DNA from: Porphyra umbilicalis
Taxonomy: Eukaryota; Rhodophyta; Bangiophyceae; Bangiales; Bangiaceae
Direction of reading: 5' to 3'
Assembly (NCBI GenBank): GCA_002049455.2
Contig: KV918906.1
Span: 1-64,000, forward strand
DNA length: 64,000 bases
Below the pieces are notes generated by a model that made no database searches, had not been told where the DNA came from, and was given only the letters and a program-made list of their open reading frames with translations. Positions 8,670-60,081 of this stretch are shown one piece after another (within the stretch, counting starts at the first letter, position 1; each line of letters starts with the position of its first letter). A program made the position numbers and the translations under genes.

Positions 8670-10063
8670 CACGCCTAGTTAAGGTGGCTCTTCTGGGTCT
8701 GAGCATTACACTGCAACGTGGTAAAATATCAGTGGCCGAGATCCATTTGGGACGCGTCCCAATTTTATAGGCCTTAACGGCCCCTGTGAGAGGGGTGGCT
8801 GACCGCAGAGGATGAGCCGTGGACTGAGCCGTGATCCGTCGGATCACGTCTTGCCCGCCTCTTCTGTCCGCACAGTTCTGGTCGCCTGCAGGCAGTCTAG
8901 CGGCGCGCGCGCCGTAGCGGTCACCTAGTGGTTGTCTTCTTGCTGTGGAGGGGAGAAATATGGCGGACGACGTTGGGGACCGAACGTAAGTGCGGCCGCT
9001 TTGTGAGGAAATCAGAGGAACCGAAGCAGGCAACAGGGAGTGGACGAGGGGGGGGGGGGGAGCAGCCGGGAGTTGCAGAGCAACACAACCCCTATCGACC
9101 CACCAAATGCGCCACGGCTGGGGGGGGGGTCCTTATGCTCACCCCCCGATGCTTGGGGACCTGCCCCTATGTTTTTCCGGGCAAAAGACATGCGCTGAGC
9201 TCGAATATGCTCGCAGAAAGTATTTCCCATCAGTTCCCCCTCTTTTCCGACCCCATCTCGCTCGACACAGGCGCGTCTGGGGCGCCCCAGCTATCTTTTT
9301 TGTGCTCACTCTTTCTCAGAAGTGGTGCACAGAAACTGCATGCAGACATGCAGCCGAGGACGGTGAGCTATCGAAACCCATGAATGGACCAGCAGAGCCG
9401 GAGTTACGGCCGGCCGACCGCCCCTACGGCCCATCAAATGCACCACGGGGGGGGGGGGGGTCTTTAAGCACCCCCCCGATGTTTGGGGACCTCCCCCTAT
9501 GTTTTTACTGGCAGAGGACATGCGCTGAGCTCGAATATGCTCTCAGAAAGTGTTTCTCATCAGTTTCCCCTCTTTCCCGACCCCATCTCGCTCGACACAG
9601 GCGCGCCTGGGGCGCCCCAGCTATCTTTTCTGCTGGTACCTTTTTCAGACGTTTTTCACACGTCTGGCAAGGTGGAGCATAGCCCGGCACAATGAGCTAA
9701 ACAGAAGCGTAAACGGTTGAGCAAGGGCGGAGATATGCCGCGTTGGCCGCACGGCCGAGAAGTACACAGTGAAGCGACCTCGATTGCGGTGTTGCTGTAC
9801 CCGTCGCGCCCGGTTCAGGATTCGCCCAACGACTGAAAGTGATTCGTTCGCCACCGTCCCATGTTGGCCCTTGAGCGCAGATGCCTGTCGCCACGTTGCG
9901 ATCTGGAGAGACAGAGAGGCGCATTTCCGATAGATGGCGGAACAGAGCTGACATCAGGGTCTTCTGCCAATGAGGGGTCGCATTTGGATGGGCGAGCCAA
10001 CCATGTGCAGCGATTCCTCTAAAAACCCAGAAGAGCCGGAACACTGGGCCTTAACTAGGCGTG
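8670..10063 (+). mobile_element. CACGCCTAGTTAAG family, element 1 (non-autonomous)
   Basis: A 1394-bp element with inverted ends CACGCCTAGTTAAGG (left) and CCTTAACTAGGCGTG (right), flanked by the duplication GGGC at 8666-8669 and 10064-10067. A subterminal word, GGCTCTTCTGGGT, is present near both ends, but further in on the right. The inside is similar to element 2 (36023-37816), for example GGTTGTCTTC then GTGTGGAGGGG near the left side. It holds a tandem duplication of roughly 230 bp (about 9090-9310 and 9415-9645) that is single in element 2. No intact transposase frame is present. It is probably mobilised in trans by a relative of element 3. Confidence 0.88.
9090..9645. repeat. tandem duplication inside element 1
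   Basis: Two copies share GGGGACCT-CCCCTATG, GACATGCGCTGAGCTCGAAT and CCCATCTCGCTCGACACAGG. A single more diverged copy lies in element 2 near 37195-37400. G-runs of 9-13 bases precede each unit. Confidence 0.8.
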
Positions 10064-26240: not shown

Positions 26241-26248
26241 CACGCCTA

Positions 26249-26546
26249 GTGTCTATTCTACCGCAGTCGGGCATCAAATGATGCCCGGTTGGGCATCAAA
26301 TGATGCACCCTCTCACAGGGCCAGACAACGACGATTCGACCCCCCCTGTTGAGGCATCTGAAGAACCCCCCGTTTGTATCCATAGCATATTGGCTGGGAT
26401 CTCCCCCAAGAATAACAAGGCATCGCTGAGTCTGTTTCTGCTGTCAAAAAGAGCGTCAGAGGTCGGGAAGTACGAAAACAAACGCTCCGAAAATGGGCAT
26501 CATTTGATGCGATTCGCATCAAATGATGCTGCGGTAGAATAGACAC
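26249..26546. mobile_element. MITE, GTGTCTATTCTACCGCAG ends, inside element 3 left TIR
   Basis: A 298-bp element with perfect inverted ends GTGTCTATTCTACCGCAG, flanked by TA at 26247-26248 and 26547-26548. Removing it plus one TA restores CACGCCTAGTTAAGG, the canonical left end of element 3. Four copies of the palindromic word GCATCA-WW-TGATGC lie near its ends (26271-26284, 26293-26306, 26497-26510, 26516-26529). They look like binding sites for a dimeric transposase or an extended stem. No coding capacity. Confidence 0.9.
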
Positions 26547-27066
26547 TAGTTAAGGTGGCTCTTTTGGATTTGAAAACGAGGATCGCATTACAGAAGTTGC
26601 CTGAAAGAGACTCGATTCTGGGGTGGCCGGCAGAGGCTGCGATGGCCACTGGTGCGGAAAGTGTCAATTGGGCAGAGCGTCTTGCTCGCCAGCTCGTCGG
26701 CCGGTTGCAAGATTGCCTTTGGCGCGGCCCATCGTCTCTCTACTGCCACCCCTGCCGAGCCCCCGCCCCCCCCCCCCCTACAAGCCCCAACACGGGTCCG
26801 CCGGAGCCTGACCAATCATCTGACCGAAGAGCACGTCTGTCCAGCCATGCTGCGCGATGGTAGAGACCGGACAGCGCCGCAACGGCCTTTGCGGTACGTA
26901 TCACAATTACTCTGGGTTCTTATGCTGATGGTCATCTGTCACCCATCGGCTGGGCACGCCATCGTGATCACGGCTCAGAGTTGGTTCGGATGGTGTGAGG
27001 AGAACCCACTCGACCGCTATTGGTTTGTGCTGTAAACGGCAGCAAAGCTAACCGTCTCCATTTCCG

Positions 27067-28890
27067 TTGCCATCCTACAGTGTGCCATCGTCTGCTGAGC
27101 TGCGAGAAGCTTTTCCTGTAAAAGTACTTGCCTTTTTTTGCCCCCCATGTCAGCGACCCTATCTTAGCCACACAGACAAGGCGGTGGCGTGGCGCGCTGC
27201 CGCACAAGCGACAAATGATGGCAAGAACCAGGCGACGGTAGTCGGGGCGGTGGCCGCCCTGCCATTTCGACGGGCCAAGGGCGTCAGCTTCACAGACGAT
27301 TTCGGCGTTGCTCGCCGGGTCTGTGGCCCGTGTGCCTCCACGGAGTACCGCCGGCGCCGGCGGGCTGGCCGTTTCAGCGGTGCGGCGGCGGCGGCTGCGG
27401 GCGCGGCGGCGTGGCCTGCCACGCCAGCCTTTGGGTTTCTCGGTGCTGGCACGCCACCCCCCCGGCCCTCCAGCCTCCTCTCGATGGTACGCGACACGAC
27501 ATGTGACCCGGGAACGTCGTCCGGCACAGCGCTGACACCGCCAGGCCTCGGATTGAGCCTCGGCTCGCCGGCGGACGTGTCAAGTGCCGCTGTGGCTGCC
27601 CCTGCCCCTCCCCCGTCCTCCGACGGCGCCACACCTGATGGCACGGCGGCTACCACGGCCGGACGGCCAGACACTGGGCGGATGCCTGCTCTGGGGGGGC
27701 CGCGGACCGCCTGGCGGGCAGAAGAGCCGTGCGCCACCTCCGTCGGCCCCCCCTCGTGCCACCACCCATGGCAGGCAACGCCGACGGGTGACCGCTACCT
27801 GTCGGACAGCACGCGTGCGGCGCAGCAGCTCAAATTGGGCTCGGTGCCGCACAGCGGTGCGCCCTGTGACGCAGACCCAGCCGCCCAGACAGGCGACGAA
27901 GCGAAGTTGGGCGGCTGGGTCGTGCAAACACCGGCGCCCGCCATTCTCCTCACCTCCACTGTGCCACCGCCTGCGCCCAGATTGAGCCCTGCCACGGCTA
28001 CTGGCGGGCTGGCTCTGGGCGCTGTGCCCCCCCCCCTGCCCAGCGGCGCGCCGACGGCGCCGCGGGTGCCCACTACAGTGGGTGGCGCCGGGCGGGCGGG
28101 GCCCTCAGAGGCTCGGACTCTGGAGGGTGTGGCGTCGGTTGAAGGGTCGGGCCCCCCTCCCGTCGTGCCACGCCTCAGTGTTCCTGACCTCGTCAGTCAG
28201 TTCATTGAGTGCCTGGGTGCGGCGCGGACGCCCACAGATATCGCAGCTCTGGACTTGAAACGGGTTTCATCTGCCATCTTGGCAAGAACCTGTCCATCTG
28301 CGGTGTCCGTGCGACACGCCAACGGGCGTGTCAGCGTTTACACTCGGCAGCCCGCGACTTTGCTGAAAACACAAGTGCGGAGGAGCCAGAGAAACAAACG
28401 CTTGGCGGTGGGTGTACGCTGCAATCCGGATGCCACACGCCCACGGGGCAGTCGAAGACTCCCGCCGCGCCCGACTGCCGCGGAGCAGGTCGGGTTGCTG
28501 GCATCCATTGGACTGAGCGATGCCAAGTTCAATCGGATACGGGTGTTTTTCGGCGGGGCTCTGAGCCCGATGGCTAGTCTACTCGCTCTGCGGGAGGCTC
28601 GAGCATCCCTAATGACACTTCCCGCGATGGAGGTCTCCTTATTGGACACTGGCGCCCATCTGGCCCACCTCTCGCGGGCAGTGGAAGGGCGGCTCGCCGA
28701 CCTGTCGTCTGCGGGGCTGTTCATTGAACGCCCCGCATATAATCCGCAGGGCGTGGCCATCCCTCAGACTGTGATTATGAGATTCCCAGCAATGGGAGAC
28801 CCTCGTATCGCGATTTCTGCCCTCCAGCCGACATGCGAGATATTCATATCTCCATTGGCTTGGACAGGGGAGGTGACCCATTTTCTGTGA
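27067..28890 (+). CDS. element 3 ORF1: CxxC protein, N-terminal part of a transposase
   Basis: A 607-codon frame, open from 27052, with no ATG in its first 130 or so codons. TCCTACAG at 27073-27080 looks like a splice acceptor, so the true start may lie in an upstream exon. Residues about 20-105 hold two Cys pairs, FFCPPCQRPYL and VCGPCASTEYRRRRR, separated by a Trp/Ala segment, and look zinc-binding. Residues about 110-370 are a Pro/Ala/Gly-rich linker. Residues about 375-590 are more globular (VPDLVSQFIECLGAARTPTD, then LLASIGLSDAKFNRIRVFF). The same Cys-pair arrangement occurs in element 2. ORF2 follows in the -1 frame with 58 bp of overlap, so the two probably make one protein through a frameshift or an unrecognised intron, unless a mutation has split it. 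I do not know the family name. Confidence 0.7.
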   Translation: MPSYSVPSSAELREAFPVKVLAFFCPPCQRPYLSHTDKAVAWRAAAQATNDGKNQATVVGAVAALPFRRAKGVSFTDDFGVARRVCGPCASTEYRRRRRAGRFSGAAAAAAGAAAWPATPAFGFLGAGTPPPRPSSLLSMVRDTTCDPGTSSGTALTPPGLGLSLGSPADVSSAAVAAPAPPPSSDGATPDGTAATTAGRPDTGRMPALGGPRTAWRAEEPCATSVGPPSCHHPWQATPTGDRYLSDSTRAAQQLKLGSVPHSGAPCDADPAAQTGDEAKLGGWVVQTPAPAILLTSTVPPPAPRLSPATATGGLALGAVPPPLPSGAPTAPRVPTTVGGAGRAGPSEARTLEGVASVEGSGPPPVVPRLSVPDLVSQFIECLGAARTPTDIAALDLKRVSSAILARTCPSAVSVRHANGRVSVYTRQPATLLKTQVRRSQRNKRLAVGVRCNPDATRPRGSRRLPPRPTAAEQVGLLASIGLSDAKFNRIRVFFGGALSPMASLLALREARASLMTLPAMEVSLLDTGAHLAHLSRAVEGRLADLSSAGLFIERPAYNPQGVAIPQTVIMRFPAMGDPRIAISALQPTCEIFISPLAWTGEVTHFL

Positions 28891-30206
28891 AGTTTGTGAT
28901 GGGTTTTCTAAACCAAGAACACCCGAACAGACTTGGAAATACCCTTCTCGTGGCAGTATGCCCAGAGTCCAAGGACAAGTACCCTGAGGTGGCTGCCATA
29001 CTGGCTCCACATGTCGCACAGTTACTACGACTGAGCTACACTGGGGTAGTTGTGGGTGGCCATAGATGGGCGGTACGCGTGTTTGTCAGCAGCGACTTCC
29101 CGGCTATAACCAACACGGTTGGTCATCAGGGGCACAGCGCGTCTATGCCTTGCCCCTGCTGCCTTGGCATGAAATGCCCCACAGAGGCCCACTCTCTGCT
29201 GGATGAGGCATTTGGGACCCTGCAGGACTTGGACTGCATTCATCCCCCCCGGACGGCGGCGCACTTGCGGGAAATGCAAGAGGCGTATGGGGGCTTGGGA
29301 CGGACCCCGGCCGAACTTGGGTTGGCTACACACATGTCGGTGGAGCGGTCACCGGTCATTGTTGTGCCACCTTCCCAAATCGTGCCCCTCCCACTTCATA
29401 TCACGATTGGTATCACAGCCCGGCTCCTACGGTTGGCAATCGAAGCTGTAACCCGAGAGCGCGGGCCCGTGGACGGTCGGCAGTTTGCGCACCGGCTGGC
29501 GGCTGTTTTAAGCGTCAACATTGGCGTCGAGCCTGTGCCCTACCACGGGGGCAACTTCATCGGTCGACACTGCCACACAATCGCTTCTGGGTGCGGTGAG
29601 ATTGTGGACGCGCTGCGACCTCTCGTGTCTGCTCCCCTGCTCAACGCCTATGAGCGCGCTTGGGAGCTCTGGCGGGGGGTACTGTCAACCCTCCACCGAG
29701 CGGCGCTTATTCCCCCCGCCGAGCAGGCGCGGTTTAAGGCTGGTGCACGGGCGTTCGTCAGACTCCTCCAGGGTTCATTCCCTTGGATGAGCATTTCGCC
29801 CAAGCTCCATATGCTGTTTTCCCACACTTGGGAATTCATGGGGCTGTGGGGCAGCACGGGACTGTACGGGGAGCAAGCCATCGAATCATGGCATGGTTTC
29901 TATAACCAAAACGCTCCCCGTTTTACCGCTGAGACGGCTCTACTGTCCTGCCGAAAGCTGGTGCAGACGATGGCGCTGAGCGGCGTAGCGTCGGAGGCCC
30001 TGCGGCGGGCGAAGGCCCCAATTCGCAAGCGCAAGGCGGCGCCCCGCGGCGCGCTGCGGCCTGGGGACCGACGATTGCGGCAGAACAAGGCATGGCGGCG
30101 CGAGTGCCTCGCGACGCTGCAGAAGAGGATAGATGACAGGGCCAAGTGGGCCAAAGACCAGTTTGAGGAGGGCAATGGCGTGATAGAAGCGTACGCTAAG
30201 AAATAG
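28833..30206 (+). CDS. element 3 ORF2: DDE-like transposase catalytic region
   Basis: A 457-codon frame. Its frame is open from 28743, upstream of the ATG at 28833, so translation may enter from ORF1. Candidate RNase-H-like landmarks are ISIGLDRGGD (Asp11), VSSDFPAI (Asp88) and YGEQAIES (Glu347/Glu351). Between them GHQGHSASMPCPCCLGMKC (residues about 97-115) is Cys/His-rich and probably binds zinc. Residues about 180-200 (LPLHITIGITARLL) and SISPKLHMLF with TWEFMGLWG, just before the Glu, are motifs I associate with large invertebrate and protist transposon proteins, but I cannot name the superfamily. The C-terminal 70 residues are basic, with nuclear-localisation-like KRKAAPR. No internal stop is present, so this copy may be recent. 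Confidence 0.75.
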   Translation: MRDIHISIGLDRGGDPFSVKFVMGFLNQEHPNRLGNTLLVAVCPESKDKYPEVAAILAPHVAQLLRLSYTGVVVGGHRWAVRVFVSSDFPAITNTVGHQGHSASMPCPCCLGMKCPTEAHSLLDEAFGTLQDLDCIHPPRTAAHLREMQEAYGGLGRTPAELGLATHMSVERSPVIVVPPSQIVPLPLHITIGITARLLRLAIEAVTRERGPVDGRQFAHRLAAVLSVNIGVEPVPYHGGNFIGRHCHTIASGCGEIVDALRPLVSAPLLNAYERAWELWRGVLSTLHRAALIPPAEQARFKAGARAFVRLLQGSFPWMSISPKLHMLFSHTWEFMGLWGSTGLYGEQAIESWHGFYNQNAPRFTAETALLSCRKLVQTMALSGVASEALRRAKAPIRKRKAAPRGALRPGDRRLRQNKAWRRECLATLQKRIDDRAKWAKDQFEEGNGVIEAYAKK

Positions 30207-30563
30207 ATTTTTTTTGCTACGGGTGACCTTTCTCAGAGGTGGACCGCTGGGTGTCATCTTGGGGCCGGGGCTTCCACCAGGTGGGCTTGTTGGATGTCCC
30301 ATGTTCTGCGAGCCCAAGGCGGATCAACAGCCAGGTTCCCCATTGTGAATGGAATGAAGCTGGTGTCACATGCTCATTGGTCAACGGGCTCTGCACTCTG
30401 AAAAGTGGTCAACGTGGAAGCCGTAAGTGTATGATGTTTGAGCTCTACCGACAGCTTTTGCGATGTCCAATAGAAAGCTATAATTGTTGAACCGAGCCAA
30501 TGAGGTGACAGCCTGGGCCCTGAAATCCAAAAGAGCCGCTCGAGGCGGTCTTAACTAGGCGTG

Positions 30564-31195
30564 CTGTGGGGCCAGGCCAGCTCGGCAGCCAATAATAGCG
30601 GCGTATGGCGAGACTACGGTGGTATCTCGCAGCATCCGACCCAGAAAACATTTACGACATGGATGAGACCGGTTTCCAGTTTCAGTGTCTTCGCAGTCGG
30701 ACCTTCCTTTCTGCAGAACGGCGACGGCACGTGCGTGGATCTAAGGCAATGAAAGCGCGACACGGGGTAACTCTCGTCTTCGCGTGCAACGTGAAATATC
30801 TCACACAAGACCCCCATCGCCATCATCGGGTGTGCGGCTGTCCCTCAGCGCTTCAAGCCGCCTCGAGGAGCAGTGCAAGGCCATGCGTTTCGCAACAGTC
30901 GGCATGAATGGTCGACATTGTCTACAAAACGTGGTTCAAGACGTTTGTCGTGCCGAACGTGCGATCCAGAACTCACTCTTCCGTCAGTTGTGTGGTCAAA
31001 CATCGTGGCGCACACACACCACTCGAGTGCGCTAGCGTCACAAGCTGCCCGCTACCGCTTAAAGTGACGTCGGTGCACCAACCACTGGACGCTGCCAATA
31101 TCTCGAGTCTCCAACGTGGACAAATCAGACGGCTGATTCAAAATGTCTTGGGTCCGTTGGCTGAGATGCGGCGTCGACAAGAGCCGACAGCTTGA
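30564..31195 (+). pseudogene. pogo transposase pseudogene, catalytic part
   Basis: This continues the gene interrupted at 26240. With element 3 and one CTGT removed, AKL joins WGQASSAANNSGVWRD, matching the KLHGEAASAD region that links the helix-turn-helix to the catalytic core in pogo proteins. A frameshift follows near 30640, and the next frame reads DPENIYDMDETGFQFQCL with the first catalytic Asp. Later parts, in other frames, are WFKTFVVPNV, VVWSNIVAHTHHSS (where the second Asp is expected but is lost) and VTSVHQPLDAANISSL with the third Asp. It therefore cannot encode an active enzyme. The end near 31195 is a TGA. Confidence 0.8.
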
Positions 31196-36022: not shown

Positions 36023-37816
36023 CACGCCTAGTTAAGGTGACTCTTACGGGGCTGAGCATTACACACGACAGAGCTGCAACGTGCAAAAATACCACTGTTC
36101 GAGGGCGATTTGGGACGCGTCCCAAATTTTTAGGCCTTCAATGCCCCTGTGAGAGGGGTGGCTGACCGGAGAGGATGAGCAATGGATCCAGCCGTGATCC
36201 GCCGGATCACATGTTGTCCGCGTTTTTTTGCCCGCTCGTTTCCACGCCGGTCGCCTGCAGGCGCTCCAGAGGCCCCCGAGCCCATACGATCGCCGACTGG
36301 TTGTCTTCCTGGTGTGGAGGGGTGCAATATGGCGAACAACAATGGAGACCGGATCTAAGTGCGACCGTTTTGTGAGGAGCTGCCCGCAGCGGAGCGGGGG
36401 GAGGGGGGAGGAGCTGCTGGGTCCTGCAGACTGCAACAGAGACACTCACATTTTCCGCGTACTATCTACGTACCCCCCCCCCCTTTTTTCTGGTTATTGC
36501 GAATGGGAAACAGGGCAATCACAGTAGGCGTCCTGCAGTCCTTTGGAGGCACAATATGGGCGTACCCTTGCGTCGACTGCGCGCGACTTCTCCTGAAACC
36601 TATATCAGGAATGGCTGATTGGCGCGACTGGGCCCAGACCTGCCCTAGTGGCTCCTCTCCAGACCTCGTTGCGCGCCTTCCAGTCGTCGTGTGCAAGCGT
36701 GAGGTGGCGGCATTGGGTTTGCACAGCACAGGGACCCCCCTCGGTTTTTGCGACAGGTGCTGCGCTCGGAGCAAGAGGGCGGCACGTCGCGATCTAGCTC
36801 CCTCTCTGTCGGCCACTACCCTGTCCCCCCGCTCCCCTACCGCAGGCTTACCGACCCCTGGCGTTCCGCTCGCCCCACGCCTGCTGCCCCAACTCGGGCA
36901 AGCACCAGCTCCCTCTTCCCCCCTTTATGCCTCAGGACGGCTGGCTCGGCTCTGCGCTATCGGTCGGCACCCAGTCGGCTAGCATGGGCGTTTCGACGGG
37001 CTTCCCAGAGGGCGCCTCCTTGGGGACGATCGACCGCTTGGGCGGGGCGCGGCAGGCAGTGCGACATAATGCACAAGCGGTTCTGATATCCTCAGCATAA
37101 AGGCGTCGAGACGCACGCATTGACCTAAGAAACCCACTAACGGACCGACACCGCAGGAGTTATGACCTGCCTTGCACCCGTGCGGCCTGGCAAAATCGCA
37201 CCAGGGGGGGGGTGTTATCACCGACCGTCGGTGTTCTGGGACCTCCCGCCATGCCACTTCGGGTACAGCATGTGCGCTGAGCACGAAGATGTCCTCAGAA
37301 AGTGTATTCCATGGGTTCCCTCTCTTTGCCGACCCCAGATCGCCCGAGAAACGGGCGCCAGGGGCTCTCCAACTATCTCTTTTGTTTGCCACTTTAATTC
37401 GACGTGGTGCGCATGCATAGCATCGTGAGTTGAAGCCCAGCGTATGAAGCTCAAGAGGTGCTCACATGGTCCAATAGGGGCGGAGCTATGACGTTATTGC
37501 CGCCGGAGCGCCAGGCACTCGTTGGTGCGAGCTCGATTCCGTTGTGCCAACCTCCAGCGAGACATATTCAAGATTCGCGCAACGACCGAAAGCGATTCGC
37601 TCGGCATCGTCCCGTGCTGGTCCTCGAGCGCTGGTAAGATTGGCCACGTCGCGATCTGGCGAAACAAGTACGCTTCTTTTCAACAGAAGATAGAAAATAA
37701 CTGACATGAAGGCAGTCGCCCAATGAAAAGTTGCATTTGGATGTAGGAGCCAACCATGTGCAGCCAAGCCTTCAAAAACCCGTAAGAGCGGATACACTGG
37801 GCCTTAACTAGGCGTG
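36023..37816 (+). mobile_element. CACGCCTAGTTAAG family, element 2 (non-autonomous)
   Basis: A 1794-bp element with ends CACGCCTAGTTAAGG and CCTTAACTAGGCGTG and target duplication CCCC (36019-36022, 37817-37820). Its outer parts align with element 1. Unlike element 1 it keeps a 208-codon frame at 36359-36982 that resembles the start of element 3 ORF1. It lacks ORF2. It is best seen as an internal-deletion derivative of an autonomous relative. Confidence 0.88.
36359..36982 (+). pseudogene. element 2 truncated ORF1-like CxxC domain
   Basis: Residues about 65-135 read AYPCVDCARLLLKP, ADWRDWAQTC and GFCDRCCARSKRAARR. These correspond in order and spacing to FFCPPCQRPYLSHT, AVAWRAAAQ and VCGPCASTEYRRRRR in element 3 ORF1. 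A Pro/Ala/Leu-rich segment follows, again as in ORF1, and then the frame stops at 36982. The ATG at 36359 is weak, because the upstream 60 codons are low complexity. The retained Cys pairs suggest a DNA-binding domain; a truncated product might compete with the full protein, which is speculation. Confidence 0.55.
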
Positions 37817-50846: not shown

Positions 50847-51662
50847 GACGCCTAGTTAAGACCGCCTCCAGCGGCTCTTTTGGATTTCAGGGCCCAGGAA
50901 GCCACCTGATTGGATTGGTCCAACAATTTCGGCTTTCTATTGGCGGCTGCGGTGGCCGGCAGTGGGGTTGGAAAAGAACGCACTTACTGCTTCCACGTCC
51001 TCAGTTTTTCCTGCGGAAGTGGATGTGGGCCAATCAGCGCATGACACCTACTGAACAGGCGAGATGCCCTTGAGTCGACTCCCAGTGAAGGCCGGTCTCT
51101 GATCTGTCTTCGGCTCTCATGCGAAAGAGATGACATCCGACGAGCCCAGTTCGAAGAAGATGCAGTTTGCTGCCTGAGCCGATAGCGGTCGGGTGGGTTG
51201 TCTTCATACCATTGGGTTCAACTCAGAGCGCTGATCACGATGATGCCAAAAACATACGGTCCACCCAAGACTATCAACAAAAGAACCCAGAGTAATTGGA
51301 CTGCCTTCGTTGACGGCAGAGCTGGTGTTGTCCGGTCCTGCTGACCGCACATCATGGTTGTATGCAGATCCTCCTTTACCATATAGTTATTGAAGTCCAG
51401 GGCCGGCCCCCAAGGTGCTTGGAAACAAAATGGGCGAAAGGAGAGGCCGCCGGATGGCGGCACAGCGATCAAGAGCACGGTGCGGGATGATCCGGCGACG
51501 GGCGGACGTGGTGGCGAGCAGACGGGCTGCCAAATCGCCGCTCCGACACGAGAGTGTCGACCAGAGCCACTGGAGGCCACACCAGAATCGCGGCGCTTTC
51601 AGGCAACTTCTGTAATGGCATCTTGCTTTTCAAATCCGAAAGAGCCACCTTAACTAGGCGTG
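50847..51662 (-). mobile_element. CACGCCTAGTTAAG family, element 4 (deletion derivative)
   Basis: An 816-bp element in reverse orientation relative to element 3. Its left end (GACGCCTAGTTAAGACCGCC, first base changed) equals the right end of element 3. Its right end (inverse CACGCCTAGTTAAGGTGGCT) equals the left end of element 3, including the subterminal GGCTCTTTTGGATTT words. Target duplication CGTC (50843-50846, 51663-51666). About 3.2 kb is missing, including both ORFs. Near 51240-51300 it keeps the segment matching about 26890-26980 of element 3. Confidence 0.9.
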
Positions 51663-52464: not shown

Positions 52465-54313
52465 GTGTCTGCGGATGCGATGCTGGCGGACCCCGTCGAC
52501 GGCGAAGTTGCCACCGCGGTGGCGGCCCACATGCAGGCGCTGCGGCGCTATCGTCGTCGCATCCGCCGGTCGCGGCTCGGCCGGCGGCGGTATATTGGGT
52601 CGGTGCGTGGCCGCCGGCCGAACAAGCACCGTGATTTTCGATCAGATTTGCGAGCTATTTTGAGGGACTATTTTGGATTGGACGGCTCCCCTCCCGTATA
52701 CGACGAGGCGGACTTTGAGAGACGGTTCCGTGTGCCCCGGTCAGTGTTTTTGCGTATCTACCACGCCGTGAAGCGTCGCCCCTTCTTTGCGCAACGCATT
52801 AACGCGACGGGCAGACCGTAGGCACACCCCTTGCAAAAGGTGGTGGCTGCTTTCCCAGTGATTGCATACGGAGAGGCGCCCGATCGAACTGGTGAATACG
52901 TCCGTTTGTCCACATCGACCATTGCTATGTCTGTTTGAGAGCTTCTACGTTTTATTGTGGATGAGTTTGGTCCGGCTTATTTGCGTCCGCCCACCCCGGC
53001 CGAGCTGGAGCGTATTCTGAAGCGCAATGCGCAACGAGGATTGCCTGGGTGTCTGGGATCGCTGGACTGCAGCCATTGGGAGTGGGCCAACTGCCCCAAG
53101 GCGTTTTCCGGCATGTACCAGAATCGGCGCGGCAAACGCTGTGTGATCATGGAAACTGTTTGTGATGAGGACCTATGGATATGGCATTTTTTTTGTCTGT
53201 TGCCCTGGTTCTCAGAATGACCTCCATGGTATCCATGCTTCCCCTCTGTATTTGTCTGTGACGGGAGGGGAGTGGCCGCCTCGTTCGTTTTCATACAAAG
53301 CTAACGGCACCACCCGCAAGCTCTTGTATTATCTGGTTGATGGAATTCACCCTCCCTTTGCATTTTTCGTTTCTCCGTTCCCCGACCCCTGCACGGTTAC
53401 ACATTGCTTTACACCCCGCACGGCATGTCATCGTCGAGTCAACGGTCACCGTCGCGAAGGCGGTGGCCATTTTACACAATATGGTGACGGAGAAGCGACG
53501 CAATGGGTACGTATCACGCACTCGAATGGCCGCCGCTGCCCAGGCGGCGGCCGGCGGCAGCGGCGGCGGAGACGCAGTCGGTGGCGGAGCCGAGGGCTTG
53601 GGAAACGGGGCTTTTGAGACCCCGGCCGCGGCCAGTGGCGCGGCCGGCGGTGCGGCCGGCGACGGGGTTGGTGGGGGTGGCGGTGGTGGGACGGGTTTGA
53701 TTCCTCATGGTGGTGCTCCCGCCGCCGGTGTTGGCGCAGCCGGCGGCGGAGCTGGCGGTGGTGGGGGTGGTGGGACGGGGTTGATGCCTGATGCTGGCGG
53801 TCCCGCCGCCGGTGTTGGTGCAGCCGGCGGCGGAGCTGGCGGTGGTGGGGGTGGTGGGACGGGGTTGATGCCTGATGCTGGCGGTCCCGCCGCCGGAGTT
53901 GGTGCAGCCGGCGGCGGAGCTGGCGGTGGTGGGGGTGGTGGGAAGGGGTTGATGCCTGGTGGTGGTGGTCCCGACGACAGTGTTGGTGCAGCCGGCGGCG
54001 GGGCTGCTGGCGGTGGGGTCGCTGGGACGGTCTGACGTCAGATGGAGGCAGCCACGCCGCCGGCGGCGGTGCGGCTGGCGGCAGTCCGCAGAGCAATGCG
54101 AAAAGTCTTGGGGGTAGCGACGGGCCGCCGACGGGTCTCGCCGCCCCTGTCATCGCGCCGGACGGCGCGCTTCCTGCCGGAAGGTTTGGTCACGCGATGA
54201 ACGCTTGGGGTGAGGCACGGGACGAGGCGAAGCACGAGCGCCTGAGGCATGACATTGCCGAACACGTGTGGGTCGAAAGGAGTACGCTTCTTGCGCTCTA
54301 CGTGGGAGTATAA
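52465..54313 (+). pseudogene. PIF/Harbinger-type transposase pseudogene
   Basis: ATG 52465 starts a frame with FRSDLRAILRDYFG and RFRVPRSVFLRIYHAV, the usual N-terminal region of plant-transposon-protein (DDE_Tnp_4-like) transposases, ending at a TAG at 52819. From 52957 the catalytic region reads GCLGSLDCSHWEWANCPKAF (first Asp), then METVCDEDLWIWHFF. A T8 run at 53188-53195 breaks the frame, which continues as PGSQNDLHGIHASPLY (second Asp) and LLYYLVDGIHPPFAFF. The region holding the third acidic residue (ERAFGVLQ in relatives) is missing. A later frame has TVAKAVAILHNMVTEKRR, then four Gly-rich 28-residue repeats. The C-terminus, in yet another frame, is EARDEAKHERLRHDIAEHVW, ending with TAA at 54311-54313. 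It acts, or acted, as a nuclear transposase; this copy is dead. Confidence 0.85.
53700..54030 (+). repeat. 84-bp tandem repeat, about four units, in transposase frame
   Basis: CAGCCGGCGG recurs at 53737, 53821, 53905 and 53989, exactly 84 bp apart. The in-frame repeat is about GGGGTGLMPDAGGPAAGVGA plus AGGGAGGG, 28 residues. The period keeps the reading frame. Confidence 0.9.
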
Positions 54314-54619
54314 AAGTTGTTTTTTTTCCCTGCTGCGCAGGGTTTTTTTCTCCTTCGATACTGTCGTCAGGAGGGGATCTTTTAGAAATTGATCCTTCCC
54401 GTCGGCGGCCTTGGCAGCGGCGAAGGCGGTGTCTCTTGTGCCGGCGGCCTCCCCGCCGGCAGTACAGGAGCGGGTGGCGGGACTGTCGTACCCTGCCGCC
54501 GGAACTAGATGGGCCGGCGGCGGATCCTGCATTGATTGTGGCAGACCCGCCGCCGGCGTTGACGAGACCGGCAGCGGGCGTGTGGGGCCTGGCGAGGAGG
54601 TGGCTGTCAGCGCTGGCGT

Positions 54620-55800
54620 TCGTCTGAGCGGCGGCGGCGCTGCGTGTTGGGGGGGATGCTGGACAGGGTCGACGACTCAGTGTGACTGCCCCGCCGCCGG
54701 CGTTGGCGAGACCGGCGGCGCACGTGTGGGGCGGGCATGGGAAGGGGAGGATTGCCGCCGGCGTTGGTATGGCGGGCAGCAGCACTGCGTGTGGGGGGTC
54801 GTGGGCGGGCAAGGGATGCAACTAGCTGCGACTGGCCCGCCGCCGGAGGTGGCGAGACCGGCGGAGGGCGTGCCGGGCCGGGAGGGGCGCTGGTGTGTTG
54901 CCGCCGGCGATTGTGCGGCCGGCGGCGGCTATTTGGCGGGTCGGGTTGCCGCCGGCGTCGGTATGGCCGGCGGCGGCTCTGCGTGTTGGGGGCGGCGGGG
55001 GCAAGGGAGGCGTCCACTTGATACTGTTCCGCCGCCGGTGTCGGCAAGACGGGCGGCGCGTGCTCGGGGCGGCCATGTGGCGGGGCGGGTTTCCGCCGGC
55101 GTCGGTATGGCCGGCGGTGGCTCTGCGTGTTGGGGGGGCGGGCGGGCGAGGGAGGCGTCCACTTGTTACTGGTCCGCCGCCTGCGTCCACAAGACCGGCG
55201 GCGCGTGCTGGGGGCGGCCATGTGGCGGGGCGCGTTGCCGCCGGCGTCTGAATGGCCGGCGGCGGCTCTGCGTGTTAAGGGGGGTGGGCAATCCAGGGAG
55301 GCGTCCACTTGCTTCTGCTCCGCCGCCCGCGTCGGCAAGACCGGCGGCGCGTGCTGGGGGCGGCCATGTGGCGGGGCGCGTTGCTGCCGGCGTCCGTATG
55401 GCCGGCGGCGGCTCTGCGTGTTGGGGGGGGCGGGCGGGCAAAGGAGGCGTCCACTTGTTTCTGCTCCGCCGCCGGCGTCGGCAAGACCGGCGGCGCGTGC
55501 TCGGGGCGGGCATCGTGCGGGGCGGGCTGCCGCCGGCGTTGGTATGGCCGGCGGCGGCTCTGCGTGTTGGGGGGGTGACAAGCAAGGCAGGCAACTAGCT
55601 GTGCCTGGTCCGCTGCCGGAGTTGGCAAGACCGGCGACGGGAGTGTCGGGCGGGGAGGGGCGCTTGTGTGCTGCCTCCGGCGTTTGTGCGGCTGGCGGCG
55701 GCCATTTGGCGGGGCGGGTTGCCGCCGGCGTCGGTATGGCCGGCGGCGGCTCTGCATGTTGAGGGGGGCGGGCGAGTAAGTGAGGGGAATAGAGTCTAGT
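54620..55800. repeat. GC-rich tandem array, about 145-bp period
   Basis: GTATGGCCGGCGGCGGCTCT-type words recur at 54962, 55106, 55251, 55397, 55543 and 55735, with weaker earlier units near 54630 and 54768. Most spacings are 144-146 bp and two are about 192 bp. Each unit also has GGAGGCGTCCACTTG or a relative, and GGCAAGACCGGCGGCGCGTG. It lies between the two convergent Harbinger genes. The period is not a multiple of three, so the open frames are shadows. Confidence 0.85.
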
Positions 55801-56094
55801 GGCCCGTCGCCGCCGTTGGCGAGACCGGCGGCAGGTGTTTGGAGCGCGGAGGGGACCGGATGTGTTGCTGTGTTGCCGCCGGCTTTCGTGGGCCGACATG
55901 AGCGGGGGTTGTAGCGCCCGTCGGCGGTGTTTGTGCGAGGATATCTTCAGTGGCCGGAAGTGCAGGGGATCCACGAAGAGTGTTGCGCAATCGTGGTAGG
56001 ATGCCTGGTGCACAGAAGTAGGAAAAAAAACCCTGCCCAACGGCGAAAAAAACCAGTTGGCACGCTACAGAACAAAGCACATACACGTCGAACA

Positions 56095-57504
56095 CTACAG
56101 GGACTCGGAATGGTCATCTTCCCCACCGGACTCCTCAACAGCACAGTCGGCGTCGTCCGCCGCCTTGTTGTGGTGCATGGGCACCAAGTACACCTCATCG
56201 TCGTCTTCCAAGGTAGTCGACGCGGCAGCAAGTGCCGCCGCCGCCTTCGCCTGCTTCGTCACCCGGGACCGAGCGCCATGGCTCGGCGTGCCTCGGTGTG
56301 TCGTCTTGGGAACAGGAGCTGTCGACGCAGGCGCCGCCGGCGTGTTGTCCCCAGACGCCGGCGGAGATTGCACTTCGGACTCGACTGCCGCCGGCTTGTT
56401 GCCGACCGGCGGCGGTGGATGCACCCCCGACACGGCCGCCGGTGCGGTCGACGACCCCGCGTGCACCTCGAACTCGACTTCCGCCTGCTTGTTACCGACC
56501 GGCGGCGGCGGATGCTTCTACGACACGGCCGCCGGTGCGGTCGACGACCCCCCGTCCGTCCCCAAGGCGGCGGCCGTCCCCGCCGGACCCGACGACATCG
56601 CCGGCGGGGACTTGGACGAGTTCGTCCCAGCCGCCGCCACCAGCTTTCGCGCGTGCATCTTGCGGAACGCAATCGCCTCGGGGGTGTCGCGCATCTCAGC
56701 GGTGTTGAAAAACGCCACAGTTGTCCGCTCCGTGGTTGCCCGCGCCAGCGCCAGCAGAGCGTCCGAGCTGTCCTTAAGCGTCCGCGACGCTCGGATGTCT
56801 TCACTTATCTCCCGCTTAGCCGCCTTGGAACCGCGCGGACGTGACTGGAAGGCACCCGCCGGCGGCGGCCCGTTCTCCTCCTCGTCAGAGTCGCTTGGGG
56901 AGGCACGGCCGCCGGCAGACGCGATGGAGGAGCCGGCGCCGCCAGCGCCGCCGTCTGCGGCGGCGGCCCCGGCGGCGCCACTAAACTTGTCAACGTGGCT
57001 CAACACCCGCCAACACGGTACGCACGGGCAGGTAGTCTGCTTGGCCTTTCGCTTCGTTGTCTTTCCCTTCGCCTTGTCAGACGCACGGTCCTTCCGCATC
57101 GCCTCGTAGATGTTGAGCCCGCAAAAGCGCGCCACAGCGGCGCTGATCAAGTCCTCGTCGCTCGGGTTGCCTGTCAGCGACAGCCGCTTAACGGCCAGGT
57201 AGTGGGAGCCAAACTCGCTCACCTCCCTCTGGATCTCCTTCCACTGCTTCTGCACCCCCCCGACACCGCGCTCAGTGCGCCGTCGCGCGCCAGGGCGACC
57301 GGCAAGTAAGCGCTTCCATTCTGCGACCACCTCCGCCCAAAAAGTTGTCCCAGTCTGGTCCAAACCCTTCACAGCGTCCAATGATGTAGACAGATAGGCC
57401 CTGCTGAGGGCCACCCGCTCCTCGTCCGTCCAGCCAAGCCCAGTCCCCATGGCAGCCGGCGCGTAGGTGGCGGCAAACAGGTCGGCGCCCTCACCGCCAT
57501 CCAC
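56095..57504 (-). pseudogene. Harbinger-associated Myb/SANT-like DNA-binding protein, one nonsense codon
   Basis: The frame from ATG 57504 runs about 470 codons to 56095 with one TAG at 56518-56520 (residue about 329). Residues about 24-110 (GLGWTDEERVALSRAYLSTS, TGTTFWAEVVAEWKRLL, then VGGVQKQWKEIQREVSEFGS) match the trihelix/Myb-like proteins paired with PIF/Harbinger transposases. PCWRVLSHVDKFSG, at about 165, is the family's usual end of the domain. Residues about 210-320 are helical and charged, and beyond the TAG lies an acidic tail (TTLEDDDEVYLVPMHH). The TAG lies in one of two about 40-residue repeats (SSTAPAAVS, HPPPPVGNK), the other copy being intact. In known pairs this protein brings the transposase to the nucleus and to the transposon ends. 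It faces the transposase at 52.4-54.3 kb, consistent with one element. Confidence 0.8.
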
Positions 57505-57545
57505 AGGTGGCGAAGAAGGCAGGTAACGCCCGCCCCGGCGGCCGC

Positions 57546-60081
57546 CTAGACGGACGTGCCACCGCCGCCGGCAGATGATGCGCCGTCGCCGGCTGGCGGT
57601 GGTCGCGCAGCAGCCTGCGGCACTTGCAAGTCAGTGCGGCGGGCGTCGCCGCCGGTACCGGCGGCCGGCGATGCGCCGCCGCCGGCTAGCGGTGGTCGGG
57701 CAGCAGCCGGCGGCACCTGTCCGTCGGTGCGGCGCGCGTCGCCACCGTTACCGGCGGCCGGTGATGCACCGCCGCCAGCTAGAAGCGATCCGCCGCCGCC
57801 GGCGAGCGGGGATGAAGCATTAGCCGGCGGCACTTGTCCTTCGGTGCGGCTCGCGTCGCCGCCGGTACCTGCGGCCAGTGATGCGCCGCCGCCGGCTCGA
57901 CGCGATCCGCCGCCGCCGGCGAGTGGGGACGGAGCACGAGCCGGCGGCACTTGCCTGTCGGGGCGAGGCGCGTCGCCGCCGGTACCGGCGGCCGGTGATG
58001 CGCCGCCGCCGGCTAGCGGCGACTTGGCAGCAGCCGGCGGCGCCGGTCCGTCACGGCCGGGCTCGTCGCCGCTGGTTCCGGCGGCCGGTGATGAGCCGCC
58101 GCCGGCCCGAGGCGATCTGTCGCCGCCGGCGAGTGGGGATGGCGCACGAGCCGGCGGTACCTGTCGGTCGATGCACGGCGCCGCCGTTGGTACAGGCGAC
58201 CGCTGATGAGTCGCCGACGGCTAGCAGTGGTCGGGCAGCAGCGGGCGGCACTTGTCCGTCGGTGCGGCGCGCGTTGCCGCCGGTACCGGCGGCCGATGAT
58301 GTGCCGCCGCGAGCTCGACGCGATCCGCCGCCGCCGGCCAGTGGGGATGGAGCACGAGCCGGCGGCATTTCTCCGTCGGGGCGGGGCGCGTCGCCGCCAG
58401 TACCGGCGGCCGGTGATGCGCCGCCGCCGGCTAGCGGCGATTGGGCAGCAGCCGGCGGCGCTGATCCGTCACAGGCCCGAGGCGATCCGCCGCCGCCGGC
58501 GAGTGGGGATGGAGCACAGGCCGGCCACACTTGTCCGTCGGTGCGAAGCGCGTCGCCGCCGGTACCGGCGACTGCTGATGAGCCGCCGCCGGCGAGCGGG
58601 GACGAATCACCAGCCGGTGGCACTTGTCCGTCAGTGCGGCGCGCGTCGCCGCCGTTACCGGCGGCCGGTGACGCGCCGCCGCCGGCTAGCGGTGTTCGGG
58701 AAGAAGCCGGCGGCACTTGTCCGTTCGCGCGGGGCCCGTCGCCGCCCGTCCCGGCGGCCGGTGATGCACCGCCGCCGGCTCAAGGCGATCCGCCGCCGCC
58801 GGCGAGCGGGAATGGAGCAGCTGCCGGCGGCACATGTCCGTCTGTGCGGCGCGCGTCGCCGCCAGTACCGGCGGCCGGTGATGCGCCGCCGCCGGCTAGC
58901 GGCGATTGCGCAGCAGCCAGCGCCGCTGGTCCGTCGTCTAAGTGCCCCCGACGCGCACCGTAGCCGCCGGCGTCCGGAAGTCTGGCACCGACCGGCGGCT
59001 GCCAATTGTCGCGGATCGGCTTAAAGTCGCCGGCCTTGGCGGGTCCTCCACCCGGCGGCCCCCAGTTGTTGTAGGGTCCCGCGTGGCCGCCAGCTTGACG
59101 ACTTGCGTGACCTCCCGGCGGCCCCCAGTTGTCTTGGCGTGCCGCGTGGCCGCGAGATTGACGACTCGCTTTACCTCCCGGCGGCCACCAGTTGTCGTGG
59201 CGTGCTGTGTGGCCTCCGGCTTGACTACTTTCTTAGCCACCCGGCGGCCACCAATCCTCGCTAAGTGGCCCAAAGCCGCCGGGCTGATCGGGACGCTGCC
59301 CGCCCGGCGGCACCCAGTTCCGCCTCGGTGAAGGCTGGCGATAGGGAGGGAAATCACCGCCGCCGTAGCCGCTGGGCTCTTGAGCTTCTTGATCTTGACA
59401 GCCCAGCGGCGCCCACACGTTGCGGCGCGGAGATCCGTCCCTGTCCCGCGAGTCCCATCCCCGGCCGCCGTACTCGTGGTCTGGTTGGAACGGCGGGTCC
59501 CACTGGCCGCCGGCTTGAGACGACCGATCAGCCGGCGACGCCCAGCCACAGCGGCGAGGAGAAACTCGACGGCCACCCGCATCCCACCCCCGACCGCCGT
59601 GTCCGGCGTTGCTGTCGGGCGGTTGCTCCCAACGGCCGCCGGCTGGATTGTCCTGCCAGGGAGCCTGCGGCACCCACTCGTCACGCGGCGGCAGCGACGC
59701 GCGTCCCGCTCCCGCGCCCAAATGTCCGCCACCTTGGTTGGGATCAGTGCTTGGTCGCGGCCCCCAGCTGCCGCGCGTCGGCTGTGACGACCGTCCCGCC
59801 CCCCCGACCCAATTGCCGCCGCCCTTGTTTGGTGTAGGGTTAGGCGGCGGCATCCAGGCGCCGCCGGCTACAGGCGGTCCTTGGCCAGCCGGCGGCGCAC
59901 AGTTATCAGACACAGGAAGTGCGGGCCCCCCGCGTGGCGGGGCCGACGTTGAGCACGGTGGGAAACCTGCGAGATGGCAAGAGCAGGTGAACCGTGCAAG
60001 CACCGCGAGCCGCTCTTGATGGCGACGACGCCGGGCACGGCGACGTTCCGTGTCGCGCTCCCGGTCCGGCTTACGGGCCAT
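57546..60081 (-). pseudogene. Gly/Trp/Pro repeat protein, broken frame
   Basis: From ATG 60081 (MARKPDRERDTERRRARRRR, a basic start) one minus frame continues to a TAA at 59233-59235. It then stays open through a TGA near 58778 to about 58170, where the reading passes to the frame ending at 57546. Residues about 75-300 contain irregular repeats of the type Gly-Gly-x-Trp-x-Pro-Pro (NWVPPGGQRPDQPGG, DNWWPPGG, NWGPPGG). Further on they give way to PLAGGGASPAAGTGGDARRT-type repeats of 30-43 residues with VPPAAA. Both intact stops replace codons that are sense in neighbouring units. It ends 42 bp upstream of the Myb-like gene, in the same orientation. The function is unknown; it could be a third product of the Harbinger element or a host repeat protein. 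The frame upstream of 60081 looks non-coding. Confidence 0.45.

Follow-up and report, generated by a model that had tools for sequence, protein, structure and literature searches.

Transib transposons leave target-site duplications (TSDs) of 5 bp. Bipartite signals with spacers of unequal length have been described for the RSSs of V(D)J recombination (12/23) and for some Transibs, which an excerpt of PMC8355894 presents as the only case outside V(D)J recombination in which 12/23 asymmetry is known, while ProtoRAG, according to an excerpt of PMC8289069, has 27/31 ends and a 5-bp TSD. Chapaev transposons are close neighbors of these systems: an excerpt of PMC3985635 equates DUF1280 with Chapaev transposases and places them in the same clade as RAG1. 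Their hallmarks, as listed in an excerpt of PMC4079192, are 3–4 bp duplications, CAC/GTG ends, and the motifs C(2)C, LH, and H(4)H; an N-terminal Chapa zinc-finger domain is listed for them in an excerpt of PMC4411706.

The transposon analyzed here lies in a stretch of 64,000 nucleotides, hereafter the window, and invites comparison with both groups. Our preferred reading, which we hold to be likely, is that it is a Chapaev-type (CMC/CMCT) element, encoding one protein with a RAG1-like core and bounded by bipartite ends with 2- and 12-bp spacers. What sets it apart is the strict asymmetric architecture of the ends in an apparent relative of RAG1.

Copies, termini, and target duplications

Four copies, numbered W1 to W4 along the window, had been recognized in the initial annotation by their terminal inverted repeats (TIRs; CACGCCTAGTTAAG) and by a separate 4-bp duplication at each place. 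Both observations hold: the ends of these copies contain six exact matches to the 14-mer and one with a single mismatch (the left end of W4, which reads GACGCC), and all four sets of 4-bp flanks match on both sides (Table 1). A loose count gives eight matches at up to three mismatches, one of them unrelated, and 2 of 100 shuffles reach eight; the case for the TIRs in the window draws its strength from exactness, pairing, and duplications, not from the loose count. The proposal that the four copies are one family stands for the shared 14-bp end and fails for the boxes inside it. W2 and W4 have an inner box in common and W1 and W3 carry others, so the four are sister families rather than one.

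Table 1. Features of the window, listed by position. In 17-type and 27-type ends the inner box starts at base 17 or base 27, counted from the end of the element.
Feature	Position	Strand	Remarks
W1, non-autonomous element	8670..10063	.	TSD GGGC; boxes 8686-8700 (17-type) and 10023-10037 (27-type)
W2, probable Chapaev-type element, transposase gene broken	26241..30563	+	TSD CTGT
Nested 296-bp TIR element, not part of W2	26250..26545	.	own TIR TGTCTATTCTACCGCAG; TSD CTAG
Box of W2 5' (17-type) end, GGCTCTTTTGGATTT	26557..26571	+	element base 17, nested insertion discounted
ORF1, transposase N-terminal part	27052..28890	+	stop to stop
CxxC...CxxC motif, candidate zinc finger	27139..27333	+	N-terminal; in other families too
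Conserved basic domain, candidate box reader	28174..28422	+	directly before the predicted RAG1-like core, where RAG1 has its nonamer-binding domain
ORF2, predicted RAG1-like catalytic core	28743..30206	+	stop to stop; fold via relative P0002
GLDRGGD, first catalytic Asp	28857..28877	+	conserved in alignment of relatives
SSDF, second catalytic Asp	29088..29099	+	conserved in alignment of relatives
CPCC, C(2)C zinc ligands	29151..29162	+	19 residues past second Asp
PLPLH, LH motif of CMC transposases	29385..29399	+	
KLHMLFSH, H(4)H zinc ligands	29802..29825	+	
GEQAIES, second Glu probably catalytic	29868..29888	+	20 residues past second His
Box of W2 3' (27-type) end, GGCTCTTTTGGATTT	30523..30537	-	base 27 counted from the end
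W3, non-autonomous element, box other than that of W2	36023..37816	.	TSD CCCC; boxes 36039-36053 (17-type) and 37776-37790 (27-type)
W4, short non-autonomous element, box as in W2	50847..51662	.	TSD CGTC; boxes 50873-50887 (27-type) and 51632-51646 (17-type)

Genome-wide, the exact 14-mer occurs 115 + 119 times, against 0 + 1 for a reversed control pattern. Twenty-nine facing pairs up to about 5 kb apart were taken among the first 100 of the matches listed; identical 4-bp flanks occur in 24 of these 29, the match being exactly 4 bp in 21 and longer, in C- or G-runs, in three. When window and transposase-bearing copies are included, 39 of the 47 elements with both ends read have identical 4-bp flanks and 8 do not. 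One-ended copies stand outside these pair counts, namely C34b (5' end not found), C106 and C98 (3' end not found), and L071, L072, L020, L022, L023, L031, L032, L036, and L038 (one end each). For the 29 of the 47 elements picked by exact 14-mers, CAC is built into the choice; among the other 18, CAC is present at both ends in 14, and the deviating ends—left in W4 (GAC), C8 (GAG), and C344 (CAA), right in C34 (CTC)—are one or two bases off. Within each of six groups compared, equal-length non-autonomous copies are 95.0–99.9% identical to one another, which is indicative of recent movement.

W2 had been described as a two-ORF element, an organization that does not survive comparison with other genome copies, several of which have single open frames of 909–1064 aa. 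Those that were translated span the N-terminal motif of ORF1 through into the ORF2 part; ORF1 and ORF2 are one coding frame, broken in W2, where the frame changes at the overlap of the two (28743-28890). The left TIR of W2 is split as well, the nested element sitting after CACGCCTAG. With both gene and left end disrupted in this way, W2, as judged from its sequence, supplies ends but is itself defective. Relatives of ORF2 are found at no fewer than 88 places in the genome (88 of 296 candidates scored).

Several neighboring features were recorded along the way. The TIR of the nested element has 55 exact matches genome-wide, and a further non-autonomous element like W1, W3, and W4 (L068:151-1534, on contig C8) lies inside a transposase-bearing copy, with the duplication GTGG. 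Beside W2, an ORF at 30599-30907 encodes YDMDETGFQF, by eye like a fragment of a pogo/Tigger DDE_1 transposase; it has no Pfam match at E<=0.01. The minus strand has a match to the NAM-associated domain at 56518-57627 (PF14303; E 2.7e-4, under the cut-off), and an ORF at 53262-54032 contains ILHNMVTEKRR and has no Pfam match; by eye, 53262-57627, with its repetitive stretches rich in Pro and Ala, may be a PIF/Harbinger-like element. Rfam gave nothing over the window at the gathering threshold, and a weak match to PilZ in ORF1 (E 0.091) was set aside. As to the host, a RuBisCO large subunit of plastid type is encoded on contig C665 of this assembly, together with eight near-full-length phycobilisome genes and two further pieces in an 893-aa frame, a set that we take to mean a red alga.

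The transposase and its superfamily

The initial annotation saw in ORF2 a DDE-like spacing around a Cys/His cluster, within a TIR transposon; the element is indeed of the cut-and-paste type with a DDE transposase, as an alignment of 48 relatives bears out for the residues concerned. The two Asp residues are conserved in 46 and 46 of the 48, the two Cys residues in 46 and 46, the LH His in 46, the zinc His residues in 40 and 38, and the second Glu of GEQAIES, most likely the catalytic Glu, in 39, with gaps or substitutions in the remainder. A profile of the same 48 relatives searched against PDB matched only RAG1 or RAG1L, in four matches that are not significant (E 0.12–0.35). In these alignments the C(2)C motifs coincide, and the second Glu of GEQAIES is matched with the final Glu of SEGNES in RAG1; the distances from second Asp to first Cys (19) and from second His to Glu (20), counted on the same alignment, equal those of RAG1. 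A structure search with the predicted fold of relative P0002 found the RAG1/Transib core from DDBD to CTD, so that the transposase is predicted to have a RAG1-like core; the stretch around the probable catalytic Glu (P0002 residue 724) is modeled at pLDDT 50–69.

Pfam leads in a compatible direction. Against the window copy, PF06918 (DUF1280) scores 17.9 bits, below its cut-off of 25. Over 66 scored genome candidates, 25 match it at E<=0.001 (best 4.1e-7), and 24 of those 25 pass the curated threshold, two of these only when their frame neighbors are included; of the relatives in the alignment, 39 of 48 match at E<=1, with a best value of 2.9e-7. These matches are partial, covering profile positions of about 153-217 of 220, or roughly the last 65. 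Taken with the predicted RAG1/Transib fold and the Chapaev hallmarks listed in the excerpt of PMC4079192, all of which are present—CAC/GTG ends, a 4-bp TSD, DDE residues with C(2)C, LH, and H(4)H—the PF06918 matches underlie our assignment to a Chapaev-type element. The verdict that no superfamily could be assigned is thereby superseded. Its companion suggestion, an unrecognized branch of a superfamily with 3–4 bp duplications, is possibly right, the superfamily then being Chapaev-type, and the exclusion of Tc1/mariner, hAT, MULE, Harbinger, and piggyBac stands, none of their Pfam families having matched. Profile comparison of ORF2 and its relatives and a structure model of P0002, along the lines then recommended, do point to a superfamily, the PDB profile matches not being significant alone.

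The assignment is not without rivals. An entirely new superfamily was rejected as first choice, since Pfam, predicted fold, and hallmarks indicate Chapaev, and it remains a rival in the form of a separate, unnamed CACTA/Mirage/Chapaev/Transib lineage with 4-bp TSDs, standing beside Lanisha, ESTA, Plavaka, or CNEST. Such a lineage would account for PF06918 matches that are partial and moderate (best 4.1e-7), and the boundaries of the group are fluid: an excerpt of PMC12730594 (Kojima) regards the placement of Plavaka, ESTA, and Lanisha within CMC or beyond it as uncertain, and one of PMC12810828 describes CNEST as a new superfamily within CMC. There are likenesses, too, in that CNEST, ESTA, Lanisha, and Plavaka have mostly CA..TG ends with C(2)C and H(3-4)H (excerpt of PMC12730594), and the CNEST TIR starts CACGG (excerpt of PMC12810828); ESTA and CNEST differ in their TA duplications, a comparison made by description. 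We nevertheless regard a separate lineage as rather unlikely, given the full set of Chapaev hallmarks, the link of DUF1280 to Chapaev, and the much weaker matches to other families: EnSpm/CACTA Transposase_21 (PF02992) in 1 of the 48 relatives at E 0.19, and the RAG1 family PF12940 barely, in 2 of 48 with a best E of 0.064. An ordinary CACTA/EnSpm or hAT-type element, whose likeness to RAG1 would reflect only the general RNase H fold, is very improbable, even though CAC ends occur in EnSpm (excerpt of PMC12730594) and the transposases of hAT (Hermes) and the P element appear lower in the same structure list.

The Chapaev-type reading itself has to accommodate differences. The host here is a red alga, whereas DUF1280 Chapaevs are described as animal in the excerpt of PMC3985635; the PF06918 match is partial; and the red-algal ends are bipartite with a fixed 10-bp difference between spacers. 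As for distribution, a protein search with the transposase alignment returned 20 matches, 12 of them already found and 8 new. A EukProt relative, P0079, is 51% identical over 51% of P0021, so the transposase family or one near it may occur in another eukaryote. Viral contigs gave 33 pattern matches, among which tblastn found no transposase relative.

Toward the N-terminus, a CxxC(about 55-60)CxxC motif is kept in transposases of several families (among them those of L027, L032, L034, L035, L069, L070, and L078) and is possibly related to the Chapa zinc finger of Chapaev/RAG1. The basic domain that follows has the majority pattern NGR.RVY.R..SPRK..VK.SQ.NKR. The nonamer-binding domain of RAG1 uses a GGRPR AT-hook-like motif (excerpt of PMC6941560), and the presence of GRPR at the matching place in the basic domain of one relative is suggestive only. 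This candidate box-binding domain is modeled poorly, with pLDDT blocks of 38–55 and a mean of 62 in a separate model that also takes in the first part of the core, a quality too low for fold comparison.

Bipartite ends with unequal spacers

The two ends of an element also have a second box in common, inward of the 14-bp TIR; it starts at base 17 at one end and at base 27 at the other. The pattern CACGCCTAGTTAAG-N{0,30}-GGCTCTT was found 88 times in the genome and its reversed form not once (0); the gap between TIR and box is 2 bp in 42 of the 88 and 12 bp in 46, with no other length. Where such ends face one another within 6 kb, all 31 pairs are mixed, combining one 2-bp with one 12-bp spacer. 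This count covers a single box, the remaining exact 14-mers carrying other boxes or having gone unread. Comparison of the two ends without reference to any box arrives at the same offset: of 45 elements (the 29 pairs, the four copies in the window, and 12 that bear a transposase), 44 have their best shared stretch at shift 10, as do two elements added later; shuffled ends give shift 10 in 4.6%. Within the 44, C349 has a best local score of 5, which is chance level and tied with shift 4, and C297 a score of 8, the 99th percentile of shuffles. Only L062 gave another best shift; this copy is decayed, and its ends can be aligned with the ends of W3. Orientation is regular too. Both ends were read in 15 copies that carry a transposase gene, and in all 15 the 17-type end is the one 5' of the gene. 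The layout is thus 12/23-like, with two-part ends and two spacers about one helical turn apart, one of each per element.

The boxes turn over between families, as in GGCTCTTTTGGATTT versus GTCCGATCTGGGTTT. Ten representative elements have nine different boxes (L045 and C25 share one), and the aligned transposases of six of the ten are 45–81% identical in pairs. Box sequence shifts jointly at both ends of an element: identity is 12.6/15 between the two ends of one element versus 9.4 between ends of different elements, the within-element value being reached by 1 in 200000 random pairings. The 10-bp offset is constant over all nine boxes; every other offset from 0 to 19 gives at most 6.4/15. The box register was picked after viewing the data, and the offset scan and permutation serve as controls. 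Not only is the offset kept, but the long spacer is 12 bp in all ten representatives, with sequences that differ strongly between groups (for example ACCGCCTCGAGC, GCCCAGTGTTCC, and AGTGGGTGGTTT). Constant length with divergent sequence, among elements whose transposases are 45–49% identical to that of the window, suggests that spacer length is under selection.

Set beside Transib and RAG1, the red-algal element has the CAC cut end, the core fold (predicted), and the D-to-C and H-to-E spacings of aligned RAG1. It departs from them in a TSD of 4 bp rather than 5 (exactly 4 bp in 21 of 24 matching pairs), in a 14-bp terminal element followed by a spacer of 2 or 12 bp, and in boxes such as GGCTCTTTTGGATTT that are unlike the RSS nonamer ACAAAAACC. 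The Drosophila P element offers a further likeness: its transposase sites are unequally distant from the ends and have been likened to 12/23 RSSs (excerpt of PMC7776569). For Chapaev, the open literature as listed, including 40 of the 70 papers that contain the word Chapaev, yielded no report of asymmetric bipartite ends, and the string 'asymmetr' is absent from the excerpts of PMC4079192 and PMC4411706.

A possible pairing rule and its implications

The ends, their spacing, the duplications, and the DDE and C2H2 residues are properties of the sequence itself, and a mechanism can be sketched from them. The transposase would be a single protein with an N-terminal CxxC..CxxC motif, a long low-complexity linker, a basic domain, and the RAG1-like core. 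Each end would be read as a CAC-headed 14-bp terminal element plus an inner box of about 15 bp, separated from the terminal element by 2 bp on the 5' side of the transposase gene and by 12 bp on the 3' side. The core would cut at CAC, as in RAG, while the box would be held by another part of the protein, probably the basic domain that precedes the core or else the N-terminal CxxC motif. A difference of one helical turn could then let a dimer bring together an end with the short spacer and one with the long spacer, favoring synapsis within one element over synapsis between like ends of neighboring copies; a 4-bp stagger at re-insertion would make the 4-bp duplication.

In essence, this would be a 12/23-type rule outside RAG and Transib, in which red-algal Chapaev-type transposases need unlike ends one helical turn apart, and we advance it tentatively, as possible rather than probable. 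The 10-bp asymmetry might instead be a frozen accident: a 10-bp indel that arose once in an ancestor, at one of the two ends, and was passed on to all families without any pairing rule. The end data all come from one genome and the terminal element is common, so a single origin of the asymmetry is likely, and mixed pairs are expected by descent if elements move as units. What argues against an accident is that spacer sequences diverge yet the long spacer holds at 12 bp in every representative, that the 88 GGCTCTT ends have only the two gap lengths, and that the box alters jointly at both ends of an element; we think a frozen accident unlikely.

The pairing rule, should it hold, bears on the origin of the 12/23 asymmetry in antibody-gene signals. 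If Chapaev and Transib share it by descent, the asymmetric bipartite signal would be ancestral to RAG1-fold transposases, and would predate animals rather than having arisen late, with V(D)J recombination. The red-algal elements provide a natural experiment in this regard: with near-identical copies, some with unbroken frames, and nine boxes in one geometry, the box reader, the spacing, and the pairing of ends are all open to test.
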